64,000 bases of DNA, taken from the IMG/VR virus record IMGVR_UViG_3300008952_000015, positions 62,001 to 126,000 of that record; one strand, written 5' to 3'. A model generated the notes under the pieces. It had not been told where the DNA came from, ran no database searches, and saw only the letters and a list, made by a program, of their open reading frames with translations. This document shows positions 7,463-46,243 of the stretch, in pieces; the first letter of the stretch is position 1, and the number at the start of each line of letters is the position of its first letter. A program made the position numbers and the translations under genes. Origin of the DNA: a virus.

Positions 7463-9775
7463 CTAGCTTTGGGGCGTTTGCTTTCTTGTCGTAGGAGTCT
7501 CTTGCTCTGCCTTCTGTCTGGCTTTCCATTCTGCGTACTGAGCCTCATTCCTTTCAAGCTCTACGGCCCTCAGGCCTTCCAACGCTTTCGATGCTTCGTC
7601 TAAGTAGGCATACTCTTTCTCTCTTGAATCTCGGAAGGCTGATGCAAACCCAGTCTGAGCCTCTGTATCAGACTCTATTGCCTGACCATACATATTGAAC
7701 CAATACTTCCAAGCCTCTTTAGCTTCATCTGTTTTCTGCTGTTCTACAATCCAGTTTCCTTCGGCTTCTGTAAGGTTTGATGGGCCTCCACCGCCATTTT
7801 CGGCGCTCACTCTTCTTCTTAACTCTAGCTCGACTATCCCTACCTGCTTTCCATCTCGTGACTTCGCCATAAAAAATGCGTTTCCAAGCTTAAATTGACC
7901 CTGTGATCCATCCCCTCTTGATACAAAGACTGTTCCGAGAGGATACTGTCCATCGGGACCTCTGGTAGCGCCTTTGGTCGCAACAAAGAATTTATTTAAA
8001 TCCATAAAGATCTTTTTGGACCCTGCTTCTTCTGGCTTTGAAGCCTCATCTGGCGTCTTAGCACGCGCTCTATCAATAGCCGAAAAAGTAAGCTTATCGG
8101 CCAAAGCTCCATCCTTATTGTCCACTCTAAAGGCTTGTATTACTTGCTTTTTAAGCCCATCTCTCTTCATAATTTCTACTACATCATCTTTAGACTGCTG
8201 CGTTAGCTCTCCCTCTGGACCTCGCTTAAAGGTATCAATCCGGCCCCATCTAGAAAGCAATTTGGTTCTCTCTGCTGCGACAGTCCCATCAGGATCATTA
8301 AGATATAGGTACTCGGTCAATAGCTCATCAGTAGGGGGAAGAGTCGCCTGTCCCTCAGACTCAGCTGGCTTTACAACCTTACCTTCAGAGGCCAAGTATT
8401 CTTTGCTCCATGCGTCCCATGCTTTTATCATGTACGAGTTGTTCCATCTGCCTTTATCGTCTAACGTGCGTCCTCCCCAATTCGGGATTTCAACCTTAGA
8501 TGCACCCTCTTTTCCATGAGTCTTAACGGCCCATTGTCGAAACTTAGTTCCGGTCGCTTCATTGTGAATCTTGCCGCCGGAATGAGCCTTCATATCAACC
8601 TTCGGCTTACTAGAGGTAGGCTTCTTTGTAGTAGCAGTATCACCTGTAGCAGTATCACCTGTAGCAGTATCACCTGCGGGGGTAGCCGTTTGCTCTGCAA
8701 AAGCCTTTGCTTCAGCTTCAGAGTTAAACCTCTTCTTCTCGCCTGTTACGGCGTTATGACCAAACCACATGTTGCTGCTTCTCTGATCATCAGGGCCTGT
8801 TCCTTCTCGCCAGTAATTGGCACTTTGTGTGGCGCTTGGCCTTCCCTTTGCACGGTCAGCAATCGCTGGTTCAGTATTGCCTGTAGCATACTTAGCTATC
8901 GGAGAAGTTCCTCTTGATGCACTCTTCCATATTCCGTCATCAGACTTGTATCCATAGTAGGTAAACATAGCTTTTGTGGCCGGATCAGACCATGAGCAAT
9001 TCTGGTCAGTGAAACATGAAGGGACGTTGTCGCAATCCCAGTCAGTAGGACATTTGCTTACATAGTATTCAACTCTATCAGGAAGTCTGTCAGTGGCGGG
9101 TTGTCGTTGTCTAAAGATATATGTTTTATTGTCAGACCAATCAAAATCGCCCTCTTCCTTTTGTCGGATTCTTTCTTGTTTCTTTGAATGTCCAGCCTTC
9201 TCTGCGTCATGTGCATTTTTCCACGCAGTAAAGAGATCAGAGTTTCGTTCCTTGATAAGCCACCAAGCAAGGGGTTGTTTGACCATGTAAGATTCTAATG
9301 AACCTTGGTGTCTTCTAAGAACAGGAACTATAGACTTGTAACTCCCAGTTTCACCAGGAGGCAGCTTCGGCAGTTCACTTCTATCCAACATGGCGTTTAA
9401 GGCCTCATCATAGGCTGCTTCTTTATCCTTAGGTGAAAAGTCTTTCCAGTTTGCTTGAGCGCCACGCAGCGTATTAAAAGCGTTCGTATAAACTTTTTTC
9501 ATCCAGTTAAAAGTATTCAGGACACCCGCTTTATCGGAGGACAGCCCGTGTTCGCTGTCGGAGTAAATATCATAATCTGCCCAAATATTCTTAACGAAAT
9601 CCTGATAGGCGGCATCACAGAGTTCGTAAAATTGCCTAATCAAAGCATTGTTTTGTGCCGTTAACCTAGCTGACTTAACGAGCCTCAATGCACTTACAGT
9701 CTCCGCTTGTTTTGTATGCCCTCGTTGTTCCAAGGCTTTCGCCAGTCTTCCTAATTCTCTTTGTTCTATATTCAT
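7463..9775 (-). CDS. large probable virion protein with N-terminal tag
   Basis: A 770-residue protein whose first 35 residues (GRLAKALEQRGHTKQAET) match the tag shared by about twelve proteins here. A central cysteine-containing block (DWDCDNVPSC) is followed by a low-complexity run with three GDTAT repeats at about 8633-8690 and a Lys/Ala-rich charged C-terminus ending QTPQS. It is rich in Trp, Tyr and Asp and has no transmembrane segment. Size, tag and neighbours suggest an internal or structural virion protein; no enzymatic motif is recognised. Confidence 0.75.
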   Translation of the reverse strand: MNIEQRELGRLAKALEQRGHTKQAETVSALRLVKSARLTAQNNALIRQFYELCDAAYQDFVKNIWADYDIYSDSEHGLSSDKAGVLNTFNWMKKVYTNAFNTLRGAQANWKDFSPKDKEAAYDEALNAMLDRSELPKLPPGETGSYKSIVPVLRRHQGSLESYMVKQPLAWWLIKERNSDLFTAWKNAHDAEKAGHSKKQERIRQKEEGDFDWSDNKTYIFRQRQPATDRLPDRVEYYVSKCPTDWDCDNVPSCFTDQNCSWSDPATKAMFTYYGYKSDDGIWKSASRGTSPIAKYATGNTEPAIADRAKGRPSATQSANYWREGTGPDDQRSSNMWFGHNAVTGEKKRFNSEAEAKAFAEQTATPAGDTATGDTATGDTATTKKPTSSKPKVDMKAHSGGKIHNEATGTKFRQWAVKTHGKEGASKVEIPNWGGRTLDDKGRWNNSYMIKAWDAWSKEYLASEGKVVKPAESEGQATLPPTDELLTEYLYLNDPDGTVAAERTKLLSRWGRIDTFKRGPEGELTQQSKDDVVEIMKRDGLKKQVIQAFRVDNKDGALADKLTFSAIDRARAKTPDEASKPEEAGSKKIFMDLNKFFVATKGATRGPDGQYPLGTVFVSRGDGSQGQFKLGNAFFMAKSRDGKQVGIVELELRRRVSAENGGGGPSNLTEAEGNWIVEQQKTDEAKEAWKYWFNMYGQAIESDTEAQTGFASAFRDSREKEYAYLDEASKALEGLRAVELERNEAQYAEWKARQKAEQETPTTRKQTPQS
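8633..8690 (-). repeat. 15-nt tandem repeat inside the 770-aa gene
   Basis: Three tandem copies of a 15-base unit (plus strand CACCTGTAGCAGTAT, third copy diverging) encode consecutive GDTAT pentapeptides, forming a flexible linker. Confidence 0.85.
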
Positions 9776-9796
9776 TATAACCCCTAAGTCCTTTTT

Positions 9797-10321
9797 TTAT
9801 TTTCTCTCAAATTTCCCGTCAAACGAGTTGAGAAAACTAAAGAAATCTTCAAACTCATTTTGTTCAAGAATATTAATAGGTTTATTATTACATCGTTCTA
9901 TATTAGCAGGTGGAGAAGACTCTTCTGATTCAATATTTGATTCTGCTCCAAAAAAACTCTCCGCAACTTCTTTGTCCTGTTGCTCATATTTGTCTCTTTG
10001 CCTATGAGATACGTCTTCACCGTGACTACCGTAAGGCACATCGAATAACCCATGAGCCTTCTTTCCTATTTCATCATCATCTGTAAAATTATTGCCCGGT
10101 TCGGGGTCGTCGGAATAGCTTATAATGCGCTGAGGCATCTTATCCTTAAGAACAACTCCTGTTTCATAGTTTCCAATTAAATCTATTATACTAAAAGCAT
10201 CATCATCAGAAGGACACTCCCCCTCTTTCGCATACTTAGCCAAGGCGCTCAGGAAGGCTGCCTCTTTATGAAACCCTTTTTTGTAAAGATATGCTTTCAA
10301 TTTTAAGAGTTTATCAAACAC
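9797..10321 (-). CDS. tag-bearing acidic hypothetical protein
   Basis: A 174-residue acidic protein. The N-terminus (LLKLKAYLYKKGFHKEAAFL) is a divergent member of the shared tag family. The remainder is Asp/Glu/Asn-rich and probably disordered, with no catalytic motif. It sits between two other tag-family genes, so a role inside the virion is the natural guess. Confidence 0.7.
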   Translation of the reverse strand: MFDKLLKLKAYLYKKGFHKEAAFLSALAKYAKEGECPSDDDAFSIIDLIGNYETGVVLKDKMPQRIISYSDDPEPGNNFTDDDEIGKKAHGLFDVPYGSHGEDVSHRQRDKYEQQDKEVAESFFGAESNIESEESSPPANIERCNNKPINILEQNEFEDFFSFLNSFDGKFERK

Positions 10322-10336
10322 GGCATCCTCAGCTAT

Positions 10337-10633
10337 TTAGCCTCGACTGACATTCCCGCCAGCAGTTAATGAGAACTCTCTTGAGATTCGCTTAGCCATT
10401 TCATTGATCCTATCAGAAGCAGTTGCCTCTACTGGCGCATCATCTATTGCAGCCTGATCTTTTACAGCTTGCTCAACCGTCTCTGTGGTTTCTGACTGCT
10501 CGTTCAATATGGCTTCCAACTCAGGAGGAATTTCCATTTCTGCACTCTTTAATATAGCATCAAGTCTATCTGCAAGATCGGAATGACCTAGCTTATCCAA
10601 GTGATTTGCTAATTTTATTATTTCTTTCTTCAT
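10337..10633 (-). CDS. possible in-frame internal gene product beginning with the tag
   Basis: ATG at 10633 is preceded by GGAG with 8-9 nt spacing (GGAGATATTAAA-ATG). From here the reading frame gives a 98-residue protein that starts MKKEIIKLANHLD, exactly like the other tag-family N-termini. The same frame is the C-terminal third of the peptidase-like gene. Either internal initiation or an old fusion explains this. Confidence 0.45.
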   Translation of the reverse strand: MKKEIIKLANHLDKLGHSDLADRLDAILKSAEMEIPPELEAILNEQSETTETVEQAVKDQAAIDDAPVEATASDRINEMAKRISREFSLTAGGNVSRG

Positions 10634-11149
10634 TTTAATATCTCCATTTTTAGATAATTCTAAAGGTGAAATTACCTTATTACTAACATTAGTAATAGAT
10701 GCTGGTCCAAAATTAGGAGTAAAAGCGTTCTCACGGGACTCAGCAACGCCCTCTCCTCCGGGGAAAGCCCCATCCTTATGATCATCAATATGAGCTAACT
10801 CGTGTATTAATGTTTTAGCAACCCCGTTCAAAATATCTTGAAACACTGGATCTGATTCATCCATCTGATTTATTTTAGACAGAATATCTTGGGGCCATTC
10901 CTTCTCAAGATTTGTAACTACTATATTTATAGTCTCTATGTTTCCATCATCGTTCGTATCTTCTGTTGTAACGTAGGCCTTTGCGTCAGGTGCTATACCT
11001 GGAGGCAAAGCTTGGTGAAACTTAAGTTTATCTCTGTTGCCTAACACGGCATGTACTGGGCCAGGAAGGTTTGTAATCTTCCTTAAACCGCCCTCTATCT
11101 TATCCCAATAACTTGGTCTTGCTATCTTTTTCATAAGCCTCTCACTCAT
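10337..11149 (-). CDS. HExxH metallopeptidase-like protein with internal tag
   Basis: A 270-residue protein. Residues 111-120 carry AKTLIHELAH and residues 121-124 IDDH, a zincin-type zinc site. Residues 173-204 contain the shared tag (IIKLANHLDKLGHSDLADRL), followed by an acidic tail. The tag begins at an internal Met173 preceded by its own Shine-Dalgarno, so a second product may be made from 10633. The enzyme could be a virion-assembly or ejected peptidase; its substrate is unknown. Confidence 0.75.
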   Translation of the reverse strand: MSERLMKKIARPSYWDKIEGGLRKITNLPGPVHAVLGNRDKLKFHQALPPGIAPDAKAYVTTEDTNDDGNIETINIVVTNLEKEWPQDILSKINQMDESDPVFQDILNGVAKTLIHELAHIDDHKDGAFPGGEGVAESRENAFTPNFGPASITNVSNKVISPLELSKNGDIKMKKEIIKLANHLDKLGHSDLADRLDAILKSAEMEIPPELEAILNEQSETTETVEQAVKDQAAIDDAPVEATASDRINEMAKRISREFSLTAGGNVSRG

Positions 11150-11163
11150 TTCTTAATTATACC

Positions 11164-11577
11164 TTAAAACTTTGGGATAAAAACCCTTGACTTTCGAGGC
11201 TTTTTATAATAGGTTGATGTTGTAATTATATCTATACCTTCGGGCCTTATTACAGAAAAGAAAAAATTAAATGCTTTTCTTGTTTTAACTTTCCTTATCT
11301 CTATCCAGCTTCTCTTTTTGGAATCTATACTTGATGTGTTTGAGACAAACATATGAACAACTCCATCAGCACTTACGGCAAAGTCTTGAGCTATAATGTC
11401 ATTAAGCTGCCTATTACTCAGGTCCTCTAGCATATCTCTTCTGTCCGACCAGAATTCATTAAAATACTTCCTATATTTAATTCTAGCAGTAGTAGATACA
11501 CGAATTGGAAGTCCGGTCCTCGGATCGGTTAGTGTCGCTTGCTCCATCCCTGCGTTCTTTATATGATCAGTCTTCAT
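11164..11577 (-). CDS. hypothetical basic protein
   Basis: A 137-residue basic protein ending in a Lys/Arg/aromatic-rich tail (YYKKPRKSRVFIPKF). No known family. The start at 11577 lies after the terminator at 11619-11648, yet no copy of the common promoter is seen between them, so its promoter is unknown. Confidence 0.7.
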   Translation of the reverse strand: MKTDHIKNAGMEQATLTDPRTGLPIRVSTTARIKYRKYFNEFWSDRRDMLEDLSNRQLNDIIAQDFAVSADGVVHMFVSNTSSIDSKKRSWIEIRKVKTRKAFNFFFSVIRPEGIDIITTSTYYKKPRKSRVFIPKF

Positions 11578-11618
11578 ACTCTGTCCTAAAGCTTACAGAA
11601 TATTACCTAATATTAGCA

Positions 11619-11648
11619 TAAAAAAAGCCCAACTAAAAAGTTGGGCTT
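11619..11648 (-). terminator. rho-independent terminator
   Basis: A perfect 10-bp stem (AAGCCCAACT / AGTTGGGCTT) with a 4-nt A loop is followed on the minus strand by a run of T. It ends the operon that begins near 13.1 kb. Confidence 0.9.
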
Positions 11649-11671
11649 AAATTAGACATATTAAATGTTTT

Positions 11672-11926
11672 TTATAAGGATACGAAATAAGCTAAAAACT
11701 TATACAGATCATCCTCTGTCTCTACCTTTAGGTCTTTTGGCATTTTCTCATACCCCGCCTTTACCATCTGAACATTATTATCAATATAATGTTGCTCAAC
11801 AAGCCCTCTTTCTACTGCCATTATAGATCCGTCAAAGCTGAGCTGTAACGTCGATAACTCGTCAAGGTCAATCTCTTTAAACCTATTTTTATGAAGTGGC
11901 ATATCCAGCCATACAAAATCAGACAT
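11672..11926 (-). CDS. small hypothetical protein
   Basis: An 84-residue soluble protein from ATG at 11926, which overlaps the upstream stop as ATGTCTGA. The two extra codons of the longer frame are unlikely. No recognised domain. Last gene before the terminator. Confidence 0.7.
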   Translation of the reverse strand: MSDFVWLDMPLHKNRFKEIDLDELSTLQLSFDGSIMAVERGLVEQHYIDNNVQMVKAGYEKMPKDLKVETEDDLYKFLAYFVSL

Positions 11927-12857
11927 TATCATACTCCAGCTTATCTTCCCATCTATCTTCGTTTTGTTTGGCAGCCTCTTTGTCTGCCTCTATCTGCTCA
12001 AGCCTTCTCTCTACACGTCGCTTGCCACGATATGATTCAGTTCCCATAAGTGAAGTAATTAAATACTCAGGCAAAGTATCTGCAAGCAGGATTATTACAT
12101 CATCATATTTAGAATCCGTAAATTGCAACAGAAGGTCATCGTAATTAAAATACTTCTCTTTGTTTTCAACCAAGCTCTTTAGACCTGCAACAGAAGAATC
12201 TGACGAGGCATCACTACGAATCTTTCGTGCGGTTTTCAGCGTTAAAAATCCAGACTCAACGTATTGGCTATACATAGCGCCCCTTGCTGCGTAACAAGGC
12301 TTTGTCTTTGAAAAGAATATCTCCTCTTCAGTAAGGTCTTTAAATGCAGTTGGAAGACTATTTGCATAGTTTTTAAGGATTTTTCTAAAAGTTTCTCTTA
12401 CATAATTATTATGTTTTTGAATCTCCCAAGTCTTGCTGAAGAGATTGTCCCACTTAAAACTGTCAACCATTCCTGCCGCAGCAATAGCATACCCTCTGTA
12501 TCCGTTCCAAATGTCGTGAGCAGAAGTGTTCTCTGTAAAAAGAGACTCCGCTAAATCCGCTATAGGCTTTTGCCAGTCAGGAATAGAGTATAGATTAAGA
12601 TCAATAGTCTCAGCATGTAACAGAATTGCATTTAAGAAATTCTCATCGCTCTCTACTGTAGCTCGCTTAACCTCTGGCAAAAGCATCTTACCATCTTTCA
12701 AGAGAAAGGTCTTTGCTGCAAGCAAGAGTCTTAGCTCAGGAGAGGGAGAGGGAGAGGTCGTACTTCTGGGGTTACGATAATGCCTAGAGTTAACATAGAA
12801 AAGCTTTCTTAAGCCTTGCTGCTGCATATACTCCATAGGTGTTAGGTCTTTAGTCAT
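11919..12857 (-). CDS. hypothetical helical protein with charged C-terminus
   Basis: A 312-residue protein from ATG at 12857 (AAGGAG upstream, overlapping the previous stop as ATGACTAA). It has a Pro/Ser stretch near residue 37 (TTSPSPSPE), helical repeats, and a C-terminal Arg/Glu-rich helix (GKRRVERRLEQIEADKE) that resembles the charged region of the 3259-4203 protein. Function unknown. Confidence 0.7.
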   Translation of the reverse strand: MTKDLTPMEYMQQQGLRKLFYVNSRHYRNPRSTTSPSPSPELRLLLAAKTFLLKDGKMLLPEVKRATVESDENFLNAILLHAETIDLNLYSIPDWQKPIADLAESLFTENTSAHDIWNGYRGYAIAAAGMVDSFKWDNLFSKTWEIQKHNNYVRETFRKILKNYANSLPTAFKDLTEEEIFFSKTKPCYAARGAMYSQYVESGFLTLKTARKIRSDASSDSSVAGLKSLVENKEKYFNYDDLLLQFTDSKYDDVIILLADTLPEYLITSLMGTESYRGKRRVERRLEQIEADKEAAKQNEDRWEDKLEYDNV

Positions 12858-13131
12858 TAGAAGACTCCTTGATCCACCTCTTAAATTCATCTAAGTGCAT
12901 ATTAATAATAGCTATTTTGACCTGATCGTTCAGGTGCTCCCAGGCATTAACTAGGGTAGAAAGAGGCAGCTCTATATATGCTTGATACATCTTCTTAGCC
13001 GTTTCATCATACTGTCTGTGACTGGCATTTACACCGACAGCTGTGAGGTAATTTACAACCTCTTCCTCGCTCATAATATCTTCTTGCACCTCTTCTGGTA
13101 CAACTTCTAAATTTTTAATCTCAGCTTGCAT
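12850..13131 (-). CDS. small acidic hypothetical protein
   Basis: A 93-residue helical protein starting at ATG 13131, where AAGGAG lies 9 nt upstream; the 15 additional codons of the longer frame have no ribosome site. No recognised domain. First gene after the promoter at 13192-13214. Confidence 0.65.
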   Translation of the reverse strand: MQAEIKNLEVVPEEVQEDIMSEEEVVNYLTAVGVNASHRQYDETAKKMYQAYIELPLSTLVNAWEHLNDQVKIAIINMHLDEFKRWIKESSND

Positions 13132-13191
13132 CGGTAACAACTCCTTTTTATCAATAAACCGTAGCCTTCGGAACATATTTCTTACAGATTA

Positions 13192-13214
13192 ATATAACTG
13201 GTGTAGATTTTTTT
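13192..13214 (-). promoter_or_regulatory. repeated phage promoter
   Basis: Minus strand reads AAATCTACACCAGTTATATTA. It follows the GroEL gene and heads the three-gene operon that ends at the 11.6-kb terminator. Confidence 0.6.
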
Positions 13215-13227
13215 TATAAAAGTTTAT

Positions 13228-14826
13228 CTACTCTTTTTCCTCATTTATCTCACATACCGTTACTTCGGTAGTTAAGAGAGTCCCACTTGCTGAAGCGGCA
13301 TTTTGAATAGCGGATCTAACTACCTTTACCGGATCTATAATACCTCCATCTACCATGTCTGCAACGAAAGCACCTTTAAGCGCATCAAAGCCACAGGCTT
13401 TGTTTTTGGAGGATATAATCTTCTCCATATAAGAGTGATATTCCTCTCCGGAATTCGCCAACACTTGCTTAAATGGAGCCTTTATTGCCTTAAGGATAAT
13501 GTCTACTCCTACTAACTCTTCAGTCATCATAGGCTCCTTTCTTAGAGCCGCCAGATCCTTTACACAGTGTAAGAGTGCTGCTCCACCACCCGGAACAATG
13601 CCTTCTTCTATTGCGGCTTTAACTGCATTTATTGCATCCTCTACTCGATCCTTCTTCTCCTTAACCTCAGACTCAGATAGACCTCCTACGCTCAAAACTG
13701 CAACAGCTCCAGATAATGAAGACAAACGCTGCTTTAATGCGGCGTGCTCATAAGCCTCTAGTGATTGGTTGGCCTGAGCTTTTATCTGCCTGACCCTTTC
13801 ACCTACTGCCTCCTGTGTTCCTGCTCCATCAATTATAGAAGTTAAGTCTCTTAATACCGCGACCTTTCTGGCTTGCCCAAGATCCTCTAAGGCCAAACCC
13901 CTCAGGCTTCCCGTTACCTCAGAGGTAAATAACTTGCCCCCACATACAACAGCTATATCTTCCATCATATCTTTTCTTATGTCACCAAACCCAGGCGCTC
14001 TAACAGCACAAGAAACCAAAGCTCCACGAGCCTTATTTAATACCAAGGTCTGCAAAGCTTCTCCCTCAACTGTCTGAGCGATAACAAGCAGCGTTCTTCC
14101 TTCTTCAGAAATTGCTTCAAGAATAGGAAGTAACTCAGACGTTGCAGATATTTTGCCATCGTATAATAGGATATATGGATTATCTAATTCACACGACAGT
14201 TTCTCTAAGTTGGTGGCAAAGGTAGGAGTTATATATCCTCTATCAAAATTCACTCCTTCCGTATAAGAAACAGAAGTCTCAAGGCCGGTCGCTTCTTCTA
14301 CAGAGATCATACCGTCATCACCTACGGCAGCTACGACAGAACCTATAAGGTTCCCTAGCTTTACATCATTATTTGCAGATATAACAGCAACACTATTAAT
14401 TAACTCTTCACTATCAACAGACTGGCTTATATCATTCAGCTTGGCTACGACAACATCGACAGCTTTATCTATACCTCTTTTTATAAGAACAGGATTGTGA
14501 CCAGCGGAAACCATCTTAGCCCCTTCTGTATATATAGCTTGAGCTAAAACAGTAGCCGTTGTAGTCCCATCACCAGCAGCGTTATTTGTCGCACTTGCAA
14601 CGCTCTTGATTAGCTCCGCTCCCATATTTTGAACTCTATCATTCAAAGTTATTGACCTAGCAACCGTAACTCCATCTTTAGTTATAAGCGGTGGCCCGAA
14701 CCTCCTTTCAATAGCGGCGTTTCTGCCCCTTGGTCCGAGAGTGGCCTTTACCGCATTAGCCAAAACATCAAGACCCTCTTGTAACCCTTGTCTTGCATCA
14801 GAACTAAATCGAACTTCTTTACCCAT
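13228..14826 (-). CDS. groEL: GroEL-type chaperonin
   Basis: A full-length 532-residue group I chaperonin from ATG at 14826 (GGAG 8 nt upstream). Landmarks are ATLGPRGRNAAI, the ATPase loop GDGTTTATVLAQ, EDAINAVKAAIEEGIVPGGG and DGGIIDPVKVVRSA. The Gly-Met tail of cellular GroEL is missing and the protein ends in EINEEKE. Chaperonin genes occur in a few large phages, where they fold phage proteins; no GroES or co-chaperonin is visible in the window. A 52-residue membrane peptide gene overlaps its start. Confidence 0.97.
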   Translation of the reverse strand: MGKEVRFSSDARQGLQEGLDVLANAVKATLGPRGRNAAIERRFGPPLITKDGVTVARSITLNDRVQNMGAELIKSVASATNNAAGDGTTTATVLAQAIYTEGAKMVSAGHNPVLIKRGIDKAVDVVVAKLNDISQSVDSEELINSVAVISANNDVKLGNLIGSVVAAVGDDGMISVEEATGLETSVSYTEGVNFDRGYITPTFATNLEKLSCELDNPYILLYDGKISATSELLPILEAISEEGRTLLVIAQTVEGEALQTLVLNKARGALVSCAVRAPGFGDIRKDMMEDIAVVCGGKLFTSEVTGSLRGLALEDLGQARKVAVLRDLTSIIDGAGTQEAVGERVRQIKAQANQSLEAYEHAALKQRLSSLSGAVAVLSVGGLSESEVKEKKDRVEDAINAVKAAIEEGIVPGGGAALLHCVKDLAALRKEPMMTEELVGVDIILKAIKAPFKQVLANSGEEYHSYMEKIISSKNKACGFDALKGAFVADMVDGGIIDPVKVVRSAIQNAASASGTLLTTEVTVCEINEEKE

Positions 14827-14977
14827 TTGTATCTCCATTATTCATTTTCTTAAAATCAACACCATCATTGATGGTATCATTAACCTTTGCAGCTATTAGA
14901 TAACCCATAAGAAAGAGTGATAGTACCAAAAATACTTGAAAACCAAGTATTATTTTGAACTGCAAATACTTCTCCAT
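14819..14977 (-). CDS. 52-aa single-pass membrane peptide upstream of groEL
   Basis: ATG at 14977 opens a 52-residue frame with one clear transmembrane segment (IILGFQVFLVLSLFLMGYLI). Its stop TAA lies within the GroEL start region (ATGGGTAAA), so translation is probably coupled. No family recognised. Confidence 0.6.
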   Translation of the reverse strand: MEKYLQFKIILGFQVFLVLSLFLMGYLIAAKVNDTINDGVDFKKMNNGDTNG

Positions 14978-15040
14978 GTAAACTATATTACCATTATAAC
15001 GGCTAAGTTACAAGTGCGTTTAGGTCTTTTTGACATCCAT

Positions 15041-15346
15041 CTATTCCTGGTCCTCATCTCTACACTCTTCAGTCTCTTTAGCCTTCTTTGCAGCTATCCT
15101 ATCGAGTCTCTTTATTCTTCCAGAAATTCTCTCTGCCGCAAAAACTACTTCATCCTCATCAAGTTCTTCCGCAAAGAAATAAAAGATAGCCTTCCCGCCA
15201 TCAGTTAAACCTGCCTCAATTTCTGCAACCTTCTGCTTAAGAGCCGAAAGATTTATCATATCTCTAAGCAATTCTTGACCAGCCTCAAGCACCTTTGGAT
15301 CGTCGGCCTTATCAATCATTGTTCTAAATTCATCAAGTTTACTCAT
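15041..15346 (-). CDS. acidic/basic helical hypothetical protein
   Basis: A 101-residue coiled-coil-prone protein from ATG at 15346 with AGGAG upstream. It ends in a charged KKAKETEECRDEDQE tail. It is divergent from the plus-strand gene at 15428. Confidence 0.7.
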   Translation of the reverse strand: MSKLDEFRTMIDKADDPKVLEAGQELLRDMINLSALKQKVAEIEAGLTDGGKAIFYFFAEELDEDEVVFAAERISGRIKRLDRIAAKKAKETEECRDEDQE

Positions 15347-15427
15347 CAAAAACTCCTGCTGTTTCATGGGTTATTTTACTACTAATATTAAAAATATAGT
15401 TAGTTTTCGTTACTTATGGAGAAAATT

Positions 15428-16966
15428 ATGGACATATCAAACAGAGCGGCCTTACTTGAAACTATGTATAAAAGTGCTAACCCAGCCAGAGGAGCTGGCA
15501 AAGCAACCTCTGAAACCGTCAAAGAACTGTCTCAGCCATTCCTATCTCTTGAGGAGAGACAGGAGAGGCTAAGAGCGATTCAAAATTCGCTTCGTGGTGC
15601 AGATGGACCATTAACTTACACTGAAGAACAAAAGAAAAAACTAGCATCATATAAAGACCTTGTTGATAACTGGGATTCTTACAAAGAATATGTAAACCCC
15701 CAGTTACAAGCTTTGGGTGATTTGGTTGCCGAAAAAACTATTCTGCCAATCATAAAGGCTATAAAGGGTGGAGAGAAAGGAGCGGTAGAGCACGGAATTC
15801 CTGTTCCCAAAAAGCGCGATACAGCCAAAGCTGAAGCAGATATAAAGGCAACTGGATCAACCATTCACGATCTCCGATGTTTCAAGCAAACCTATGCCGC
15901 ACTTCAGAATAATACTTTTCATAAAATTGCCTCTTCAAAAATGGCTAGAGAAGACATATCCTCTGCCTTTCAAACAGAATTTGATAAGTCTTATGACATA
16001 TTCATAAAAAACGCTAAAGACTACGGAGATTTAGATCACGAGACATACGCTCAATTTCACGAACTTGCCGTAGCACATCATATTTTAACCCAAGAAGGGT
16101 TCGTTAAAGATGCTAAGGTTATAGATAACTTTGTCATAAAAAATGCTGGATTCTGGAGCACTGTAGGTGACGGGTTATCTGACGGGTTATCTTATGCTTG
16201 GGATGCAGCAAAAGGTGTAGCCTCAAAAGCTATTGAGTATGGTGGCAAAGCAATAAGCTTTGTTGCCGATGTAGCTGTCGGTGCAGTTAAAGCAGTCGGA
16301 AAGGCCGCATGGGGAGTGTTAAAAGGCTTAAAATATATCGTTACAAAGCTTCCTTTTATTGGAATCATTTTTTCTGCTCCCTTTTTCCTAAAAAATCTTA
16401 TTGAAAGTTACCAAAACGGAAAACGAATACTTTTAGAACAACCGCTTGAGAAATATGGATGGAACCCATATATCGTCATAACTCCCGCTGGTCTTGGTCA
16501 TGTTCGTTCGACGTTTATAAAAGCAGTTGATAAGCATAAGAAAGATCCAGACGCTCTAAAGGAAATCTTAACTATCTTTAGAACAATAGGCGCATTTTGG
16601 ATTGACCTTCTGTTTATGATAACTAATGGATTCATGCTCTTTCTTGACTTATGTGCTCTCATTGGATTCATAGCTGGGTTTTTTACTGCTGGTGCAGGTT
16701 GGCTGGTAGCTGTTGGTGCCTACGGAGGAAGCTTTCTCTTAGCCCTCGGAATAGGCGCATTAGAACTTGGTGCCGAATACTTCAAAGATGAAATGTGGGA
16801 CAAAGATTGTCTGTACTTACTCGATGAAGCTAAGAAGGAAATCAAAATCTTGCTATCAGAAGGAACCCCTGCTAAACGATCCAAAACTACGGTGGTAAAC
16901 CCCTATGAGGAATCTAGCTCTGATGTTATCGAAACATCAGAAGATCCTATTCCTATTGCTGCCTAG
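15428..16966 (+). CDS. tag-containing membrane-active protein, possible ejection protein
   Basis: A 512-residue protein on the otherwise rare plus strand, from ATG at 15428 (GGAG 7 nt upstream). Residues 210-240 (HELAVAHHILTQEGFVKDAK) match the shared tag but are internal. Beyond that are Ala/Gly-rich amphipathic helices (KAISFVADVAVGAVKAVGKA) and hydrophobic segments around residues 295-315 and 390-440 able to span a membrane. A soluble helical first half plus a pore-like second half recalls internal virion proteins that line a channel during DNA ejection; this role is inferred. Confidence 0.75.
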   Translation: MDISNRAALLETMYKSANPARGAGKATSETVKELSQPFLSLEERQERLRAIQNSLRGADGPLTYTEEQKKKLASYKDLVDNWDSYKEYVNPQLQALGDLVAEKTILPIIKAIKGGEKGAVEHGIPVPKKRDTAKAEADIKATGSTIHDLRCFKQTYAALQNNTFHKIASSKMAREDISSAFQTEFDKSYDIFIKNAKDYGDLDHETYAQFHELAVAHHILTQEGFVKDAKVIDNFVIKNAGFWSTVGDGLSDGLSYAWDAAKGVASKAIEYGGKAISFVADVAVGAVKAVGKAAWGVLKGLKYIVTKLPFIGIIFSAPFFLKNLIESYQNGKRILLEQPLEKYGWNPYIVITPAGLGHVRSTFIKAVDKHKKDPDALKEILTIFRTIGAFWIDLLFMITNGFMLFLDLCALIGFIAGFFTAGAGWLVAVGAYGGSFLLALGIGALELGAEYFKDEMWDKDCLYLLDEAKKEIKILLSEGTPAKRSKTTVVNPYEESSSDVIETSEDPIPIAA

Positions 16967-17159
16967 ACAACTTATTACTAGGCTTTCTACTCCACCATCT
17001 TAACCATTCCTGTTCCCACTCTTCCTGGGAAACTCGCCGCGATCTTCCTCTTATGATAGAGAAGTAAATGGTTCTCGAAACATTGTTCACTATATTATCT
17101 CCTAGATATGTCAAAAGAAGCTTCGCTCTAATAGCCAAACCCACAGCAATATAACTCAT
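16953..17159 (-). CDS. small basic hypothetical protein
   Basis: A 68-residue frame, convergent with the 15428-16966 gene and overlapping its last 14 bases. It has a hydrophobic start and a Trp/Arg-rich end. No clear Shine-Dalgarno precedes ATG, so this is a weak call. Confidence 0.35.
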   Translation of the reverse strand: MSYIAVGLAIRAKLLLTYLGDNIVNNVSRTIYFSIIRGRSRRVSQEEWEQEWLRWWSRKPSNKLSRQQ

Positions 17160-17203
17160 GCAGATTATTTTTCATAAATCTGCTACCCAAGCTTCTGTTT
17201 TTT

Positions 17204-18707: not shown

Positions 18708-18722
18708 TGTATAATCTCCTGT

Positions 18723-20638: not shown

Positions 20639-20725
20639 TGGTAGGGATGATGGGACTCGAACCCATAAGATCATTTGATCGACAGATTTTAAGTCTGTTG
20701 CGTATGCCAATTCCGCCACATCCCC
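20639..20725 (-). tRNA. tRNA-Leu (UAA), CCA encoded
   Basis: On the minus strand a full cloverleaf folds, with acceptor GGGGATG/CATCCCT, anticodon loop CTTAAAA carrying UAA, the long variable arm typical of Leu, T-loop GGTTCGAGTCC and a genomic CCA. Confidence 0.95.
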
Positions 20726-21714: not shown

Positions 21715-22020
21715 CTATTCTATATACTCAGTTAATAAGTTTTTAATTTCTTCAAGGTCACTTGCATCAAATGACTCATATATAATACTAACAAGTTCGC
21801 TTTTAAACATTTCATTTGTAGCGTTTGCTTGAATTTCTGCCCTAAGGTCATCAAAGTCAGCCCCGCGACTATACCCCTCTTCTGCCTCTAGGCTAAGTTC
21901 ATCAGAGGTACTTGTAGCGACTCCATAAAGCTTATGTATCATGTCGTCAATATATATTGACTCCTCAGTCATCTCTAGTTCATAAAGTTCTTTTGATAAT
22001 CTTAATAATTCAGCTAACAT
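21715..22020 (-). CDS. small acidic protein with divergent N-terminal tag
   Basis: A 101-residue protein from ATG at 22020 (GGAG upstream). The first 32 residues (LAELLRLSKELYELEMTEES) follow the hydrophobic spacing of the shared tag, with the GL replaced. The rest is acidic and helical. Confidence 0.65.
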   Translation of the reverse strand: MLAELLRLSKELYELEMTEESIYIDDMIHKLYGVATSTSDELSLEAEEGYSRGADFDDLRAEIQANATNEMFKSELVSIIYESFDASDLEEIKNLLTEYIE

Positions 22021-22129
22021 TTTAATCTCCAATTCTATTATTTTTCACAAGTAACATTACATCGTATTACTATATTTTATTATTTTTCAATAATAGAACA
22101 ACTTTATGTGCAAGAAGAGAATAAATCTT

Positions 22130-22667: not shown

Positions 22668-22677
22668 ATATGCCTAC

Positions 22678-27936: not shown

Positions 27937-28320
27937 TTACTCATCCCTATGTAGAATATCTTGAAACAGCTGATCTGCCTGTGCTCTTTCCTCGTCTGTA
28001 GGAGCACCTGCACCTTCTACCTCTGCTGCCAACTGATTCATTTCTCTTACAGCCGCAGCTGCCGCGCCGTTCATATCTAATCCAAACTCTTGAATATTTC
28101 GCATAAACAAAGCTCTAAACATATCTGCATAAGACTCAGGATCTAGCCAATCGCTATCCAGAAAGCCTTTATGCACAGCCTCATCCTCCCTGCTCAAAGG
28201 CTCATTATTAAAGCCTTCCGCAAGAGTTCCTGCGAACTTGTCTAAAACATCAGCTTCTTTAGCTAACCCCTTGCTATCTAGCTCTTGAGCTAATTTCAAA
28301 ACCTTTGTTAATAATGACAT
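27937..28320 (-). CDS. tag-family acidic protein
   Basis: A 127-residue protein whose first 30 residues (KVLKLAQELDSKGLAKEADV) closely match the shared tag. An acidic Ala/Glu-rich helical remainder follows. No enzymatic motif; it may be internal virion cargo. Confidence 0.75.
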   Translation of the reverse strand: MSLLTKVLKLAQELDSKGLAKEADVLDKFAGTLAEGFNNEPLSREDEAVHKGFLDSDWLDPESYADMFRALFMRNIQEFGLDMNGAAAAAVREMNQLAAEVEGAGAPTDEERAQADQLFQDILHRDE

Positions 28321-34062: not shown

Positions 34063-35226
34063 CTACAGAAGGCCTCTTATCTTCGACACATATTCCTTTG
34101 CTACGCGGGAAGGCATATGAACCCCGTCGCACTTAGAGCAGACGTAACCAGACTTAATCTCCCTGCCGCCTATAATTTGAGGCTTATCAAACCTTATATG
34201 TTTATAAGGATCAATGAAAGTCCACCCTTGAGCCTCAACCAAGGGTCTTACAAAATCATTATCTGAGCTTCTTTTGTCATATCGGGCAAGGAAGCTTTTG
34301 TCTGACCTTTGAAACTTATAATTACTGCCCCTTTTTCTCACCGGAGGCGGGGTTCCACTCCATATCACAGGAGCCTTTGAGTACGAAGAAATTAAGCTTA
34401 TCAGGGTTTCAGTGCCACCTGTTCCATTACCGCCTAAAGAAATTATTATCTTAGTTGGACCTTTTTCTAAGAGGCTAATTAGTTTTGCATTGGTTGCCCA
34501 ATGAGAAGCTCTTGTAGAGCGTTTTGCAAGTCTAATTTTCTCCCCACTACCTGCGGCCATAAGAGCGTTTCCAAGGGTCCATGCCATCTGACTATCCCCA
34601 AGGTAAAGGGTAAAGTCACCCTTTGTAATTCGTGGCCCTGTACCATGTTCCTTGCTGCCCTTATCGGGGTAGGATTCGATTAGCTCTAAGGTATCTTCGT
34701 TTACTAGATCATCAATTTCTCCTGAGTATTTTCCGTCCGATTTAGCTTTCTCTTTAAATGCAATTACTGCTGATTTGGTTTCTCTTCCAAAAAGACCATC
34801 TACGCCAAATCTCGGCAGATCAAACCCAGCTCTCACTAATGCTTTTTGCAGCCGTTCTACTGCGCCCTTATTTTTTGAGTTAACCTTTAATAAAAGGCCT
34901 TCATCAAAATCTTCTGATTCAGACGAAGACCCCTTTGGCGGCGGTCTTTCTTTGGAAAGGGAAATCGGTGGAGACTCAGATGCCTCTGGCTTTGTATCAG
35001 AAGTAGGCTCAGGATTCAAAGGAGGGCTATAACTTACGCTCTCTCCCGTTATCTCTCTTAGTTCTGCTCGTAGCTTCTCAGCCTTTTCTGCATCTCCGAT
35101 AGGCGCAGCGTTTTTGAGGATCAAGTCTCCGCTAAGCAAAAGGACTTTATCGGACTCTTTAAGAAGACCTCTCTCCCTCAATACTGCGGCTAACCTATTT
35201 AGCTTTTTGTCGAAGAAATTACTCAT
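34063..35226 (-). CDS. tag-family SGNH hydrolase with peptidoglycan-binding domain
   Basis: A 387-residue protein from ATG at 35226; the longer frame overlaps a neighbouring gene. In order it has the shared tag (LNRLAAVLRERGLLKESDKV), a Pro/Ser/Glu-rich linker, a PG_binding_1-type domain (AVERLQKALVRAGF ... VDGLFGRETKSAVIAF), and an SGNH-type hydrolase (GDSQMAW, LGGNGTGG, CDGVHMP with Asp/His). It probably binds cell wall and removes acyl groups or cleaves an ester in the envelope during entry or lysis. Confidence 0.82.
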   Translation of the reverse strand: MSNFFDKKLNRLAAVLRERGLLKESDKVLLLSGDLILKNAAPIGDAEKAEKLRAELREITGESVSYSPPLNPEPTSDTKPEASESPPISLSKERPPPKGSSSESEDFDEGLLLKVNSKNKGAVERLQKALVRAGFDLPRFGVDGLFGRETKSAVIAFKEKAKSDGKYSGEIDDLVNEDTLELIESYPDKGSKEHGTGPRITKGDFTLYLGDSQMAWTLGNALMAAGSGEKIRLAKRSTRASHWATNAKLISLLEKGPTKIIISLGGNGTGGTETLISLISSYSKAPVIWSGTPPPVRKRGSNYKFQRSDKSFLARYDKRSSDNDFVRPLVEAQGWTFIDPYKHIRFDKPQIIGGREIKSGYVCSKCDGVHMPSRVAKEYVSKIRGLL

Positions 35227-35281
35227 ATCATAACTATGTTTATTAATAGTAAAAACGCAAAAAGCAGAGACAAAGCCTCTG

Positions 35282-37943: not shown

Positions 37944-38021
37944 TGGTCGGCTGACCGAGACTCGAACTCGGAACCCTCTGTTTATGAGACAGACGCTCTA
38001 ACCTGATTGAGCTATCAGCCG
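37944..38021 (-). tRNA. tRNA with CAU anticodon (Met or Ile2), CCA encoded
   Basis: The minus-strand cloverleaf has acceptor CGGCTGA/TCAGCCG, anticodon stem TCTGT/ACAGA with loop CTCATAA (CAU), T stem CCGAG/CTCGG and CCA. Identity between elongator Met and Ile2 is open. Confidence 0.93.
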
Positions 38022-38996: not shown

Positions 38997-39074
38997 TGGT
39001 AGGGCTAGTAGGACTCGAACCTACAACCGTTCCGTTATGAGCGGAAAGCTCTAACCAGATTGAGCTATAGCCCC
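38997..39074 (-). tRNA. tRNA with CAU anticodon, probably tRNA-Ile2
   Basis: The cloverleaf has acceptor GGGGCTA/TAGCCCT, anticodon stem TTCCG/CGGAA with loop CTCATAA, T arm GTAGGTTCGAGTCCTAC and CCA. From memory the anticodon-to-T-arm sequence resembles Bacillus tRNA-Ile2(CAU). That would make it a substrate for the phage TilS. Confidence 0.93.
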
Positions 39075-39361: not shown

Positions 39362-39369
39362 TTGTATTT

Positions 39370-41047: not shown

Positions 41048-42058
41048 TTATTTAATCTTTGCCACGTCATCTCCTAAACCATCCGGCTCATCAGAGCTGT
41101 TAGTATCTAATTCTCCGCTAAGAATATCAGATATGTGTTCGCGTATCCTGCTTCTAGTTGGGCGGCCAGCCTCGCCTGTATCTTTTTTATATTCGGCGTG
41201 CTCCCACTCAACACCTGCATCTTTTAAAAACTCATTTGCCTCAATTATCATTTCAGTATGAGTAGTTACTTTTCCCTTTGTTCCTTTGACGAAAGATATC
41301 CATCTTCGTCCCGGCTCATTGTTGTTTATAATAAACTTCGAAATAACTTTACCAAGCTTTCGTATAACCTCGCTATATGCCTCTTTGTCAAATGGTACAG
41401 AGAATTTTTCTCCAACTAATTTATCCCAATCTTTCGTGAGCATCCCGCTCGCTCTCTGAGAGGGATCTTTGAAAAGTCCAGGCACATCATATCCGGGGAA
41501 ACTCTCCCACATATCCTCAGGAACAATTCCTAATGGTTCAGATATTGTCACCCAATAAGCGAGTTTTTCTTTTTCGTTTAATCGATCCTTAATATCACTA
41601 TAGGCCTTATAATACTGTCCAGAGCCAGGGCAGCTCTCTCCCCAAGGCTTTGAGGCTGCACATGGGACTAAAATAATATGCTTATACTTCTCTGGAATTA
41701 TAAAGTCTTCTATCTCTTCAAACCAAGCTTGTATTTTAGGATTTTTTAATAAATCTAAAACCTCACCTGGAGTATAGGCTGTTAGTTCTGGGTCATATTT
41801 GAAATCTTCTGTCTCTTTGTAGCTTGAGCTAGGCTTTTTATCTACAAGATGAGGCCGTAAGATATTGTCGTAAGTATCTTGATCTATATAAGGAAAGCTG
41901 CTTCCTTCCTTTTCCTTACCCCACTGATCAGCCTCCCATTTGGATACAGGCGCAGCCTGTTTTAATATCAAGTCAGCTTGATCCGCAAGAGAGTATAGTC
42001 CACCACTATCTAACTCATTGGCTATCAAAATTAATTCTTTAATGGCCCTCAGATTCAT
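41048..42058 (-). CDS. tag-family protein with DUF5591/archaeosine-synthase-like domain
   Basis: A 336-residue protein. It has an N-terminal shared tag (IKELILIANELDSGGLYSLA), then a domain with ILVPCAASKPW, VTISEPLGIVP and FPGYDVPGLF. This layout is seen in DUF5591/ArcS-type proteins linked to 7-deazaguanine chemistry. If the domain is active it may act on nucleic acid; if packaged it could enter the cell with DNA. Function is inferred. Confidence 0.65.
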   Translation of the reverse strand: MNLRAIKELILIANELDSGGLYSLADQADLILKQAAPVSKWEADQWGKEKEGSSFPYIDQDTYDNILRPHLVDKKPSSSYKETEDFKYDPELTAYTPGEVLDLLKNPKIQAWFEEIEDFIIPEKYKHIILVPCAASKPWGESCPGSGQYYKAYSDIKDRLNEKEKLAYWVTISEPLGIVPEDMWESFPGYDVPGLFKDPSQRASGMLTKDWDKLVGEKFSVPFDKEAYSEVIRKLGKVISKFIINNNEPGRRWISFVKGTKGKVTTHTEMIIEANEFLKDAGVEWEHAEYKKDTGEAGRPTRSRIREHISDILSGELDTNSSDEPDGLGDDVAKIK

Positions 42059-42621
42059 CATATTCCAACTTCGTGCTCTTCTTCTATTAAATAATATTTT
42101 ACAGCTTCTACTAAAAAAGAGAAGTCTTCGCTATAATGAGGGTTGTCTGATGCCTCACCTTCTGCCGCTTGTTCTGCCTCAGACACAACGTCTCTAATGA
42201 GCTGATTAATATCAGACTCCCCCAGATCATGATACAGGTCTGCTAATCTATCTGGAAGCACCTCTATTATATACATTATAAGCGTTGTACTGCCGTGATA
42301 AGCATATTCTGAAAGCTTGCGCTCCCCACCTTCATGCTCGAATTTTGCGTCAGGAGATAAATTCTTTAGAGCGAACTCTCTAATCATATTATTTCTTCTT
42401 TCGTCTCTTTTGTCCTCAAAGTTAACAACCTCTCCCAGCTGTTCTTCCTCATCAAGCGTGTCACTTTTAGGCTCTAGCTTAGGCCTTAAAGCTCTAGCTC
42501 TTTCTTCAAAATTAATAATATCAGCTGCAAGTTTATCTAAAACACTTGCCTCTTTCAAAAGACCTCGACTATCCAGCTCTGCGGCTATTGAGATCAACTC
42601 TTTTATATATTTATTCTTCAT
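42058..42621 (-). CDS. tag-family acidic protein
   Basis: A 187-residue protein with a strong tag at residues 5-30 (IKELISIAAELDSRGLLKEA), followed by acidic helices. It overlaps the next tag gene by 4 nt. No catalytic motif. Confidence 0.72.
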   Translation of the reverse strand: MKNKYIKELISIAAELDSRGLLKEASVLDKLAADIINFEERARALRPKLEPKSDTLDEEEQLGEVVNFEDKRDERRNNMIREFALKNLSPDAKFEHEGGERKLSEYAYHGSTTLIMYIIEVLPDRLADLYHDLGESDINQLIRDVVSEAEQAAEGEASDNPHYSEDFSFLVEAVKYYLIEEEHEVGI

Positions 42622-43147: not shown

Positions 43148-43840
43148 TTATGCATGATCAATAGTCTTAGAGAGATGATCCTTTATCAGCCATAGCTCTG
43201 CCATAATCTCTTCAGAGGCTGCCTTTATACCGCCTTCAGAACGACCCGATGGATCTTCTCTCAGGATAGTAACGGCAAGATTTGATTCCTTATCCTCAAT
43301 CTGTTCGGTTACTGAACCAATAATGCTAATTAGACCCTCTACTCCTAATGATAATGCTGCTATAAAGCGTGCTGGAGCATGTTTAGCTAAAAGAATTATT
43401 CCGCCGCTAGACCGAAGGCTCTTAAGAAGATTAAAGGCTCTAAGCGCAGCTCCAGCAGGAACTGTAATTGCGGCAGATAAAAGATTAAAGAAACCATTAA
43501 GGTTCTCCCCTTTTTTAAAGTACCCTATTGCAGCAGTAATGTCTATAAGCATAGTTCCTTTCATGGCGGCTATACCCCCTGCTGTTGTAACTGGATCAGG
43601 CCAAACTATAGCTCCTGCTGCCGCAACTTTTCCAAATATAGATATAACCTCTAATACTTCTGGATTTCCCATAAGAAGCTCATAAACACCTTTTCCTGAA
43701 CTTGGTGGAGCAGACTCAACGTGCTGTAGTAGACCAGAGCCATCTAAAGACTCTTTTATTATCTGATCTAGAGCATCAGCTTCCTTGCATAGACCCTTTG
43801 AGTCCAAAGTATTTGCAATTATAATAAGATCTTTTATCAC
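43148..43840 (-). CDS. tag-family protein with hydrophobic middle
   Basis: A 230-residue protein. The tag (IKDLIIIANTLDSKGLCKEA) is at residues 2-29. An Ala/Gly-rich segment (VAAAGAIVWPDPVTTAGGIA) and several hydrophobic helices follow, with a polar end. It resembles membrane-inserting or pore-like virion proteins, such as the 15428 gene. Confidence 0.7.
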   Translation of the reverse strand: MIKDLIIIANTLDSKGLCKEADALDQIIKESLDGSGLLQHVESAPPSSGKGVYELLMGNPEVLEVISIFGKVAAAGAIVWPDPVTTAGGIAAMKGTMLIDITAAIGYFKKGENLNGFFNLLSAAITVPAGAALRAFNLLKSLRSSGGIILLAKHAPARFIAALSLGVEGLISIIGSVTEQIEDKESNLAVTILREDPSGRSEGGIKAASEEIMAELWLIKDHLSKTIDHA

Positions 43841-44974: not shown

Positions 44975-44976
44975 TT
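44915..44976. repeat. 62-bp direct repeat, copy 2
   Basis: 61 of 62 bases match copy 1. Together the copies flank the methyltransferase gene. Confidence 0.95.
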
Positions 44977-45182
44977 TAATTCTCTATTTCATCTAAAGAT
45001 TCTTCTTCAGTATCGCAGACAACAGTTCCCGCTTGGAAAGCTTCGTCCTTAGTTATGTTTGTATCGTCTAAGTCTGAGAAATCTCCAAGGTCGCTTATTA
45101 TCTCATCTAAAGCATCAGCTTCTTTCCGAAGTCCTTTTGCATCCAGCTCATTTGCCAGTTTAATTAATTCTTTTATAATCAT
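44976..45182 (-). CDS. short tag-family protein
   Basis: A 68-residue protein that is almost only tag (IIKELIKLANELDAKGLRKE) plus an acidic tail. This is the cleanest example of the tag and argues that the tag alone can be a functional unit. Confidence 0.75.
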   Translation of the reverse strand: MIIKELIKLANELDAKGLRKEADALDEIISDLGDFSDLDDTNITKDEAFQAGTVVCDTEEESLDEIEN

Positions 45183-45187
45183 AATAT

Positions 45188-45580
45188 TTACTTCCTTTTG
45201 TAATCGTCTTCGATGATCTCGTAAGCAGTCTCTACTCGATCAGACGACTCTATAACCACTGAGTCCTCCAAGGCTGTTAGCCTATAGGGGCATCCAGAGG
45301 GTACTGATAAAGCTTGCTTGGGATTTAGCTCTGTTGTCATCATACGCTTAGGATCTGTAGTCTTGTGGTCCCCATACATAACCTCTAGCTTTCCTGATAC
45401 TAAGTAAAAAGATTCGTTCTTTACTTGGTACTTCTTTAGGGATGTTCTATGTCCCTTTTTAATATTTATTATTTTACAGTGCGATACCGTACTTGTTGTG
45501 GCCCATGTAGTCTCCAGCCCCCACGGTTTGTCTTTTGTTGTTACGTCGCTTATCCAAGGGACTTTAATCTCATAGCCCAT
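45188..45580 (-). CDS. cupin-fold sugar isomerase-like protein
   Basis: A 130-residue cupin from Met15 of the longer frame (ATG 45580). KPWGLETTW, HCKIINIKKGHRTSLKKYQVK and SFYLVSGKLEVMYG follow the C-terminal cupin of type II mannose-6-phosphate isomerases. It could serve sugar-nucleotide or surface-sugar metabolism. Confidence 0.72.
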   Translation of the reverse strand: MGYEIKVPWISDVTTKDKPWGLETTWATTSTVSHCKIINIKKGHRTSLKKYQVKNESFYLVSGKLEVMYGDHKTTDPKRMMTTELNPKQALSVPSGCPYRLTALEDSVVIESSDRVETAYEIIEDDYKRK

Positions 45581-45712
45581 ATCTTTCCTTAATTTATTTA
45601 TTTTATATTTGTACCTTAACAAACATCCCGAAACTTAATTAACTGAAACTACTCTCATCTGATCTAATGCCCTTAAAAATTAATTATTTATATATATATG
45701 TTTTAGGAGGCC

Positions 45713-46243
45713 TTACTCATCCTCTGGCTCTTGGAACTTACGGTATTCGTTTCCAAGACTGTCAATAGCATGGCCTGGGTTCTTTTGTTCAAACTGCCAT
45801 TTCTCAAAGGCAAGTTCACTAGGATCTCGCTTTTCCTTCTGCATTGATTTCTCATTCAGAATATCCCGCTCAAGCTTTCGGATTGTTCCCTTTATATTAG
45901 CGGCAAACCTAAGAAACGGCTCGTGCAGCATACCAAGATCATCGCTTATATCATTTCTTCTTTTAATATATTCAACAGCGTCCTTGTACCAGCTAGTTGC
46001 AAACTCTTCTGCGGCCATCTCTCGGCCATAAAAAAACATATCTTTTGCTTCTTCATCTGTATTATACGTCTTTAGATAAAACTCTAAATTATCCTCATTC
46101 AAAGCATCATCGCCTGAGCTTAAGTCTGTGTCCTCATCGCCCTCTTCAGCCGCCATTCTAATTATCTTATCCAAGATGCCAGCCTCTTCAGCCAAGCCTC
46201 TCTGATCTAACTCATTCGCTAATTTAATTAATTCTTTTATCAT
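45713..46243 (-). CDS. tag-family acidic protein
   Basis: A 176-residue protein from ATG 46243 (AAAGGAT upstream), with the tag IKELIKLANELDQRGLAEEA followed by acidic and basic helices. No enzymatic motif. It is the rightmost tag gene in the window. Confidence 0.72.
   Translation of the reverse strand: MIKELIKLANELDQRGLAEEAGILDKIIRMAAEEGDEDTDLSSGDDALNEDNLEFYLKTYNTDEEAKDMFFYGREMAAEEFATSWYKDAVEYIKRRNDISDDLGMLHEPFLRFAANIKGTIRKLERDILNEKSMQKEKRDPSELAFEKWQFEQKNPGHAIDSLGNEYRKFQEPEDE

Follow-up and report, generated by a model that had tools for sequence, protein, structure and literature searches.

A recurrent segment on unrelated phage proteins as a likely capsid-targeting hairpin

Results

The DNA analysed here (the window) is a stretch of 64,000 nucleotides, bases 62001-126000 of the 128,565-base IMG/VR virus record IMGVR_UViG_3300008952_000015, which we refer to as G000. 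An initial annotation of the window had noticed that a segment of about 30 residues, here called the tag, recurs on about twelve otherwise unrelated proteins, and had proposed that it is an address into the prohead resembling the capsid-targeting sequence (CTS) of phage T4. We found the repeat to be real and to extend beyond the window. Open reading frames (ORFs) were called mechanically, and several start codons are uncertain. A seed profile was built from seven window copies, which score 54-64 bits with it compared to a maximum of about 7 bits in 20x shuffled proteins. These strong copies, all on the minus strand, include N-terminal tags in ORF 27937-28320 (28231..28320, 58 bits, tail LDKFA), in the DUF5591/ArcS-like ORF 41048-42061 (41954..42058, 55.5 bits, tail ILKQAA), in ORF 42058-42621 (42526..42621, 56.7 bits, tail LDKLAA), in ORF 43148-43840 with its glycine/alanine-rich, pore-like cargo (43748..43840, 59.4 bits) and in ORF 45713-46276 (46151..46249, 64.2 bits, tail IIRMAA). 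The 68-aa product of ORF 44976-45182 is, as annotated, almost nothing but tag, consisting of an N-terminal copy (45090..45182, 61.5 bits) and an acidic tail. The remaining seed member is internal and occupies residues 173-203 of the HExxH zincin-like ORF 10337-11149 (10541..10633, 54 bits).

Four further copies are degenerate. Because the tag profile was iterated, the scores of copies included in it are inflated; as fair scores we used non-iterated seed scores and a profile-profile comparison of 159 families with the tag profile. In this family comparison the four copies align with the tag profile in full register, with P-values of 2.9e-6 to 4.4e-4, and their families, together with one head protein, lead the ranking once the tagged families are passed. 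They are likewise on the minus strand, in ORF 21715-22032 (N-terminal, 21916..22020, P 2.9e-6), ORF 9797-10321 (N-terminal, 10229..10321, VFDKLLKLKAYLYKKGFHKEAAFLSALAKYA; P 4.6e-5, 5.1 bits with the seed profile), the peptidoglycan-binding/SGNH-like ORF 34063-35313 (35107..35226, tail ILKNAA; P 4.0e-4) and the 770-aa protein encoded at 7463-9775 (N-terminal, 9668..9775, MNIEQRELGRLAKALEQRGHTKQAETVSALRLVKSA; P 4.4e-4). The true start of the protein in ORF 34063 is near residue 30 of this ORF (MSNFFDKKL), which corrects the earlier start. The last of the annotated copies is less certain. A possible internal tag seen by eye at residues 214-244 of the pore-like ORF 15416-16966 (the copy annotated at 15428; 16055..16147, FHELAVAHHILTQEGFVKDAKVIDNFVIKNA, tail IKNA) is on the plus strand, opposite to the remaining tagged genes, and is not significant: it scores 0.1 bit with the seed profile, and the family comparison gives P 1.2e-2, at another place. 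Of the twelve copies named at the outset, seven are thus strong and four have family-profile support.

A search with a profile hidden Markov model, as the initial annotation had suggested, returned more tags in the rest of the record and in related IMG/VR contigs. Outside the window, bases 1-19000 of G000 form a head module that encodes a head-maturation protease, a portal and a terminase. Inside this module there are tagged proteins at G000 10501-11106 and, with three copies, at G000 15978-16877, and homologs of these proteins occur in several contigs. A divergent copy is found at G000 4373-4918; its homolog G023:101299 in a related record reaches P 1.4e-6 in the family comparison.

Relatives were collected with a degenerate DNA pattern for LDxxGLxKEADxLD, which gave 53 matching stretches in about 40 IMG/VR contigs. 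In 21 related records, the profile search detected 136 tag domains (E<1e-3) on 127 ORFs, with up to 22 tags per record; 5x shuffled proteins scored at most 10.8 bits. The 121 tags that were compared fall on 98 cargo clusters, in agreement with the annotated lack of relationship among the downstream parts. Most tagged contigs encode a portal similar to that of Bacillus phage G, with 45-100% identity among them and about 33-35% identity to the phage G portal; the larger tagged contigs without a portal have many other proteins in common with this lineage. A distant relative, the 177,708-base record G019, has seven ORFs with a variant tag in which SLT replaces LDx, in the style EADSLTxxVxRxAQ and with tails such as RxAQ. 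The Moraphages (PMC12619734) were rejected as the lineage that hosts the tag: their description lists T4-like core genes and a family B DNA polymerase, and the present record has a portal and a major capsid protein (MCP) of the phage G type.

One explanation of the repeat would be that it is a common helical hairpin, or the product of ordinary paralogy, with no common function. Short amphipathic hairpins are indeed common, and several adjoining tagged genes could be duplicates. However, seven positions of the tag are more than 90% conserved over the 98 cargo clusters, and the common hairpin of unrelated soluble proteins that the initial annotation had reckoned with was not seen: the exact pattern has 0 matches in 257 Gb of prokaryote genomes, and comparison of the tag with Pfam, PHROG and PDB gave no notable match and none that was significant among solved structures. 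A tblastn search against 50,697 phage records (isolates) returned nothing relevant, with low sensitivity for so short a query. The profile search had 0 tag matches in phage G (NC_023719), and no description of the tag was found in the open-licence literature searched. We therefore regard a generic hairpin or simple paralogy as very improbable.

The signature of the tag is L-I-K-L-A-N-x-L-D-x-x-G-L-x-K-E-A-D-x-L-D-x-I-I-K-K-x-A. The positions conserved in more than 90% of copies are L5, A9, L12, D13, G16, A21 and D25, and positions 27-28 are I or L. An AlphaFold2 (AF2) model of the tag alignment headed by the 44976 copy has a helix at residues 2-14, a turn and a second helix at residues 18-35, with a mean predicted local distance difference test score (pLDDT) of 91.5. 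The tag is thus confidently predicted to be a two-helix hairpin of about 30 residues. It is near the N-terminus in 90 of 107 distinct tags, and the remainder are internal or C-terminal. Tags on unrelated cargo are more similar to each other within a genome (0.495) than between genomes (0.464), a difference reached in 0 of 300 permutations. This fits a shared, genome-specific partner, although recent duplication would also produce it.

The internal tag of the zincin-like gene has a particular context. We compared the window gene with its homologs at G023 32229, G013 17418, G018 113816, G009 110107, G030 46608, G022 78677 and G012 155122. HExxH is retained in 8/8 genes (in the forms HELAH, HEQDH, HEVAH, HELGH and HEYGH), and in 8/8 an in-frame ATG with a Shine-Dalgarno-like site lies exactly at the tag, compared to 18% of internal ATGs; in the window gene the site upstream of the tag ATG is GGAG. 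As the zincin genes are homologous, the eight nested starts are not eight independent events. The in-frame ATG and the Shine-Dalgarno-like sequence suggest that the tag region of ORF 10337 probably also yields a protein of its own. These genes may thus have two products, the nested one being a free tagged acidic protein.

A known domain was recognized in a minority of the cargo, and most cargo has none. The protein of ORF 34063 matches Pfam PG_binding_1 (6.9e-6), and its tagged relative in G013 matches both Lipase_GDSL_2 (7.8e-19) and PG_binding_1 (2.3e-12). The cargo of ORF 41048 matches DUF5591 (2.6e-7). Further tagged proteins are LysM and cell-wall hydrolase proteins, ArdC-N-like proteins, DnaJ and HExxH zincins, and a PcnB/CCA-type tRNA nucleotidyltransferase (G003 C1:110494-112848, PolyA_pol 2.2e-30) has the tag at its C-terminus. 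The cargo for lysis, anti-restriction and chaperone functions fits delivery at infection; the ArcS-like and nucleotidyltransferase cargo is neutral in this respect. An untagged nucleotidyltransferase-like gene is present in the head module of G000 and G023 (G000 12649-13461).

Judged by sequence comparison, the closest relatives of the tag are found among the head proteins of the same phages, including the product of the slot gene, which has the head protease gene on one side and the next gene of the capsid region on the other. The slot protein is small and acidic, and its position and composition suggest that it is probably the scaffold. Divergent relatives have a tag in this slot. In G033 the slot gene has two true tags (single-sequence E-values 2e-14 and 3e-11), in G025 it has a C-terminal hairpin (3.3e-6), and in G004 a weaker one (1.8e-4). 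In the main lineage the N-terminal half of the slot protein is acidic and modelled with low confidence, and the protein has two degenerate hairpins in gapless register with the tag, the second of which reaches P 6.7e-5 alone; the AF2 model of the slot protein has turns where the tag turns are expected and a C-terminal pLDDT of about 90. A C-terminal helical hairpin in the scaffold-position gene is thus present in G033 and G025 and is predicted by AF2 in the main lineage.

These relationships bear on the idea that the tag is an address within the infected cell and not into the virion, leading to a phage-made compartment, a replication centre, a membrane or a common hub, for instance a chaperonin. 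Any kind of address could take the form of an N-terminal segment that unrelated proteins have in common, the phages encode their own GroEL-like genes, and the DnaJ, ArcS-like and tRNA-nucleotidyltransferase cargo need not sit in virions. Against this, the hairpin is part of head-module genes and of the protease-adjacent slot, the recognisable replication and metabolic enzymes of the record carry no tag, and the junction between tag and cargo agrees with a motif that is enriched in head proteins (see below). We consider an intracellular address quite unlikely.

For the junction we searched for [KR]xA up to 12 residues past the last LD of the tag. Of the 116 tags with cargo behind them, 84 have it, in nearly all cases at an offset of 3 or 4, compared to 9/116 and 10/113 in control windows. 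Among C-terminal tags, with no cargo behind them, only 2/13 have the motif, both from one family; the difference between the two classes is significant (Fisher 9.5e-5, or 6e-4 without two too-short tails). The related motif hhKxA, counted as [LIVM][LIVM]KxA, occurs 122 times in untagged head proteins versus 26.4 expected (4.6-fold), and 33 times in replication proteins versus 25 expected (1.3-fold). Shuffled-order control motifs were little enriched. By genome, the enrichment is strong, 6- to 7-fold, in G018, G011, G009 and G025. No depletion of hhKxA within the cargo was seen (5 versus 4.4 expected). A short N-terminal MKKxA leader, tried as a second signal, had no enrichment over control windows and was rejected.

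The phages encode a head-maturation protease (phrog_18299, 7.4e-14) with His and Ser conserved in 13 homologs and several hhKxA sites along its long C-terminal region. The MCP of tagged phages is extended at its N-terminus by about 45-50 residues, in which hh[KR]xA is retained (IVKYA, LLKYA, LVRIA); this extension is missing from phage G gp27, though the protease is common to both. From these occurrences hhKxA is probably the site of the protease. The MCP extension was rejected as the necessary partner of the tag, since G019 combines variant tags with an MCP that lacks it. The head protease of G023 (C1:104725-108132) has 1135 aa, in which the protease domain is followed by repeats (RRIAYMQGGAEGVEPNTYKSETWDR...) and acidic segments; it is perhaps a protease-scaffold fusion.

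The distribution of the motif also bears on an alternative to removal of the tag, in which the tag is a structural or scaffold element without proteolysis, a permanent anchor in the head or another virion part, and the junction KxA is a feature of the helix end. Such an anchor would agree with the hairpin in head-module proteins, with tags that are C-terminal or between domains, with KxA in the first helix too and with the 32 of 116 tags without [KR]xA. It does not account well for KxA being kept in cargo-preceding tags and lost in C-terminal ones, for [KR]xA being kept while its offset shifts by one residue, or for the enrichment of the motif outside tags, in head proteins, in the MCP extension and in the acidic region of the protease itself. 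We therefore think a permanent anchor unlikely.

Discussion

We consider it likely that the tag is a hairpin for capsid targeting, that it is related to the scaffold protein, and that the head protease removes it by a cut behind hhKxA. Its resemblance to the head-building machinery, together with its usual end in a motif like a protease site, suggests that it probably loads proteins into the head. In the mechanism that we propose, the tag would be a modular prohead-targeting hairpin, a member or offshoot of a family of helical hairpins in phage head-assembly proteins, above all the slot protein. During head assembly the hairpin would dock at the docking place of the scaffold, via the partner of the scaffold hairpin, so that any protein carrying it would be enclosed in the prohead. 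The head-maturation protease would then cleave where the second helix ends, behind hhKxA (or hhKKxA), and so release the cargo, which would stay with the DNA and exit the head with it at infection. We infer the docking partner, the cleavage, the enclosure and the injection from the relationships described above.

Several observations weigh against this reading. The homology of scaffold to tag is weak in the main lineage (hhalign probability 7-64%; P 5e-3 in the unbiased ranking with the full family), and the strong slot evidence is positional and comes from G033 and G025. The enrichment of hhKxA is uneven: G000 itself has 2.4-fold (6/100 shuffles) and G004 2.2-fold (9/100), neither significant alone, other proteins reach about 2-fold in several genomes, and the head region of the tagless phage G has 3-fold on 4 sites (7/100). 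As head proteins are related across these phages and are not independent samples, the z-scores overstate independence. In the 32 of 116 tags without [KR]xA in the searched window, many have KxS or a related form. Since KxA is also found inside the first helix, the signal could in part reflect the chemistry of helices and not cleavage. The MCP extension, absent from G019 with its variant tags, is not an obligatory partner. The presence of tagged proteins in virions, finally, is something that we infer. Support for the prohead address put forward in the initial annotation is thus partial: packaging, cleavage and delivery at infection are proposals, and what speaks for the address are the tags in the head module and slot, the [KR]xA junction, the recurrence of this motif in head proteins that have no tag, and the protease.

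The closest parallel in mechanism is found in T4, where the internal proteins, apart from the conserved CTS that they have in common, form a diverse set of defence proteins (PMC3012670), and where the CTS of IPI-III and Alt is cleaved by gp21 (PMC3012670, PMC5694885). Like the T4 CTS, the tag is a short N-terminal address on diverse proteins and would be part of the head-assembly core system; a prohead protease of the His/Ser type would be expected to remove it behind a short consensus, and the cargo would plausibly be delivered with the DNA. Unlike the T4 CTS of 10-20 residues, the tag is a predicted helical hairpin of about 30 residues, is also found internally and C-terminally, has [KR]xA at its end and is attached to far more cargoes. 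The likeness to T4 is drawn at the level of mechanism, and the tag is not demonstrably homologous to the T4 or P1 signals. For P1 DarB, the N-terminal 30 residues are enough to direct a reporter into the capsid (PMC9024508). The tag is of about equal length, but the P1 Dar proteins have no common consensus and the tag has a strong one on about 98 cargoes.

In SPN3US and phiKZ, inner-head and ejection proteins have long propeptides that are cut at AxE/SxE (PMC5694885, PMC10052503). These are also giant phages with many inner-head proteins, and their propeptides are cut by the protease and thought to be CTS-like. However, the propeptides are mostly longer than 100 residues and have no common domain, with an N-terminus shared only by the paralogs gp53/gp54, and the corresponding motif of the tag would be [KR]xA and not AxE/SxE. 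The scaffolding protein of P22 has a C-terminal, coat-binding helix-loop-helix that docks on the inner procapsid surface (PMC9965877). This hairpin of about 30 residues at the C-terminus of a scaffold is likely a mechanical analogue of the slot hairpin; P22 has no head protease, and capsid docking in the present phages is a proposal. Phage G is the closest by its head proteins, with a homologous portal (33-35% identity), MCP (8e-93) and protease (gp19, 1.8e-27), but it has neither the tag nor an N-terminal extension of the MCP.

Going one step further, we slightly favour the view that in this lineage a hairpin of scaffold type became a universal loading domain that includes a protease site, and that its fusion to an open-ended series of about 100 cargoes gave rise to a dedicated, expandable delivery system for virion effectors. 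With about the same modest preference, its members would be readable from sequence alone and would comprise cell-wall hydrolases, zincins, anti-restriction-like, chaperone and tRNA-acting proteins and membrane proteins. The inner-head contents of giant phages are usually learned only by proteomics of isolates. Should the tag be a packaging signal, sequence would suffice to list what an entire uncultured lineage carries inside its heads, and there would be hypotheses for about 98 otherwise unannotated protein clusters. The tag would also be a candidate for a packaging domain that is genetically encoded and brings its own protease site. It suggests that capsid-targeting signals could originate by reuse of a scaffold-type hairpin.

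Other genes of the record

The record has two different GroEL-like genes, at 13228-14838 of the window and at G000 21719-23377. Inspection of the window also points to an IMPDH-like gene (1286-2389), an adenylosuccinate synthetase-like gene (5742-6758) and a glutamine synthetase-like gene (17643-18707). ARAGORN identified a transfer-messenger RNA gene at 26994-27364 of the window with the tag peptide ANDNYYYNEFALAA. Four tRNA genes are present in the window, for Leu (20639-20725), Met (37944-38021 and 38997-39074) and Arg (51084-51160).

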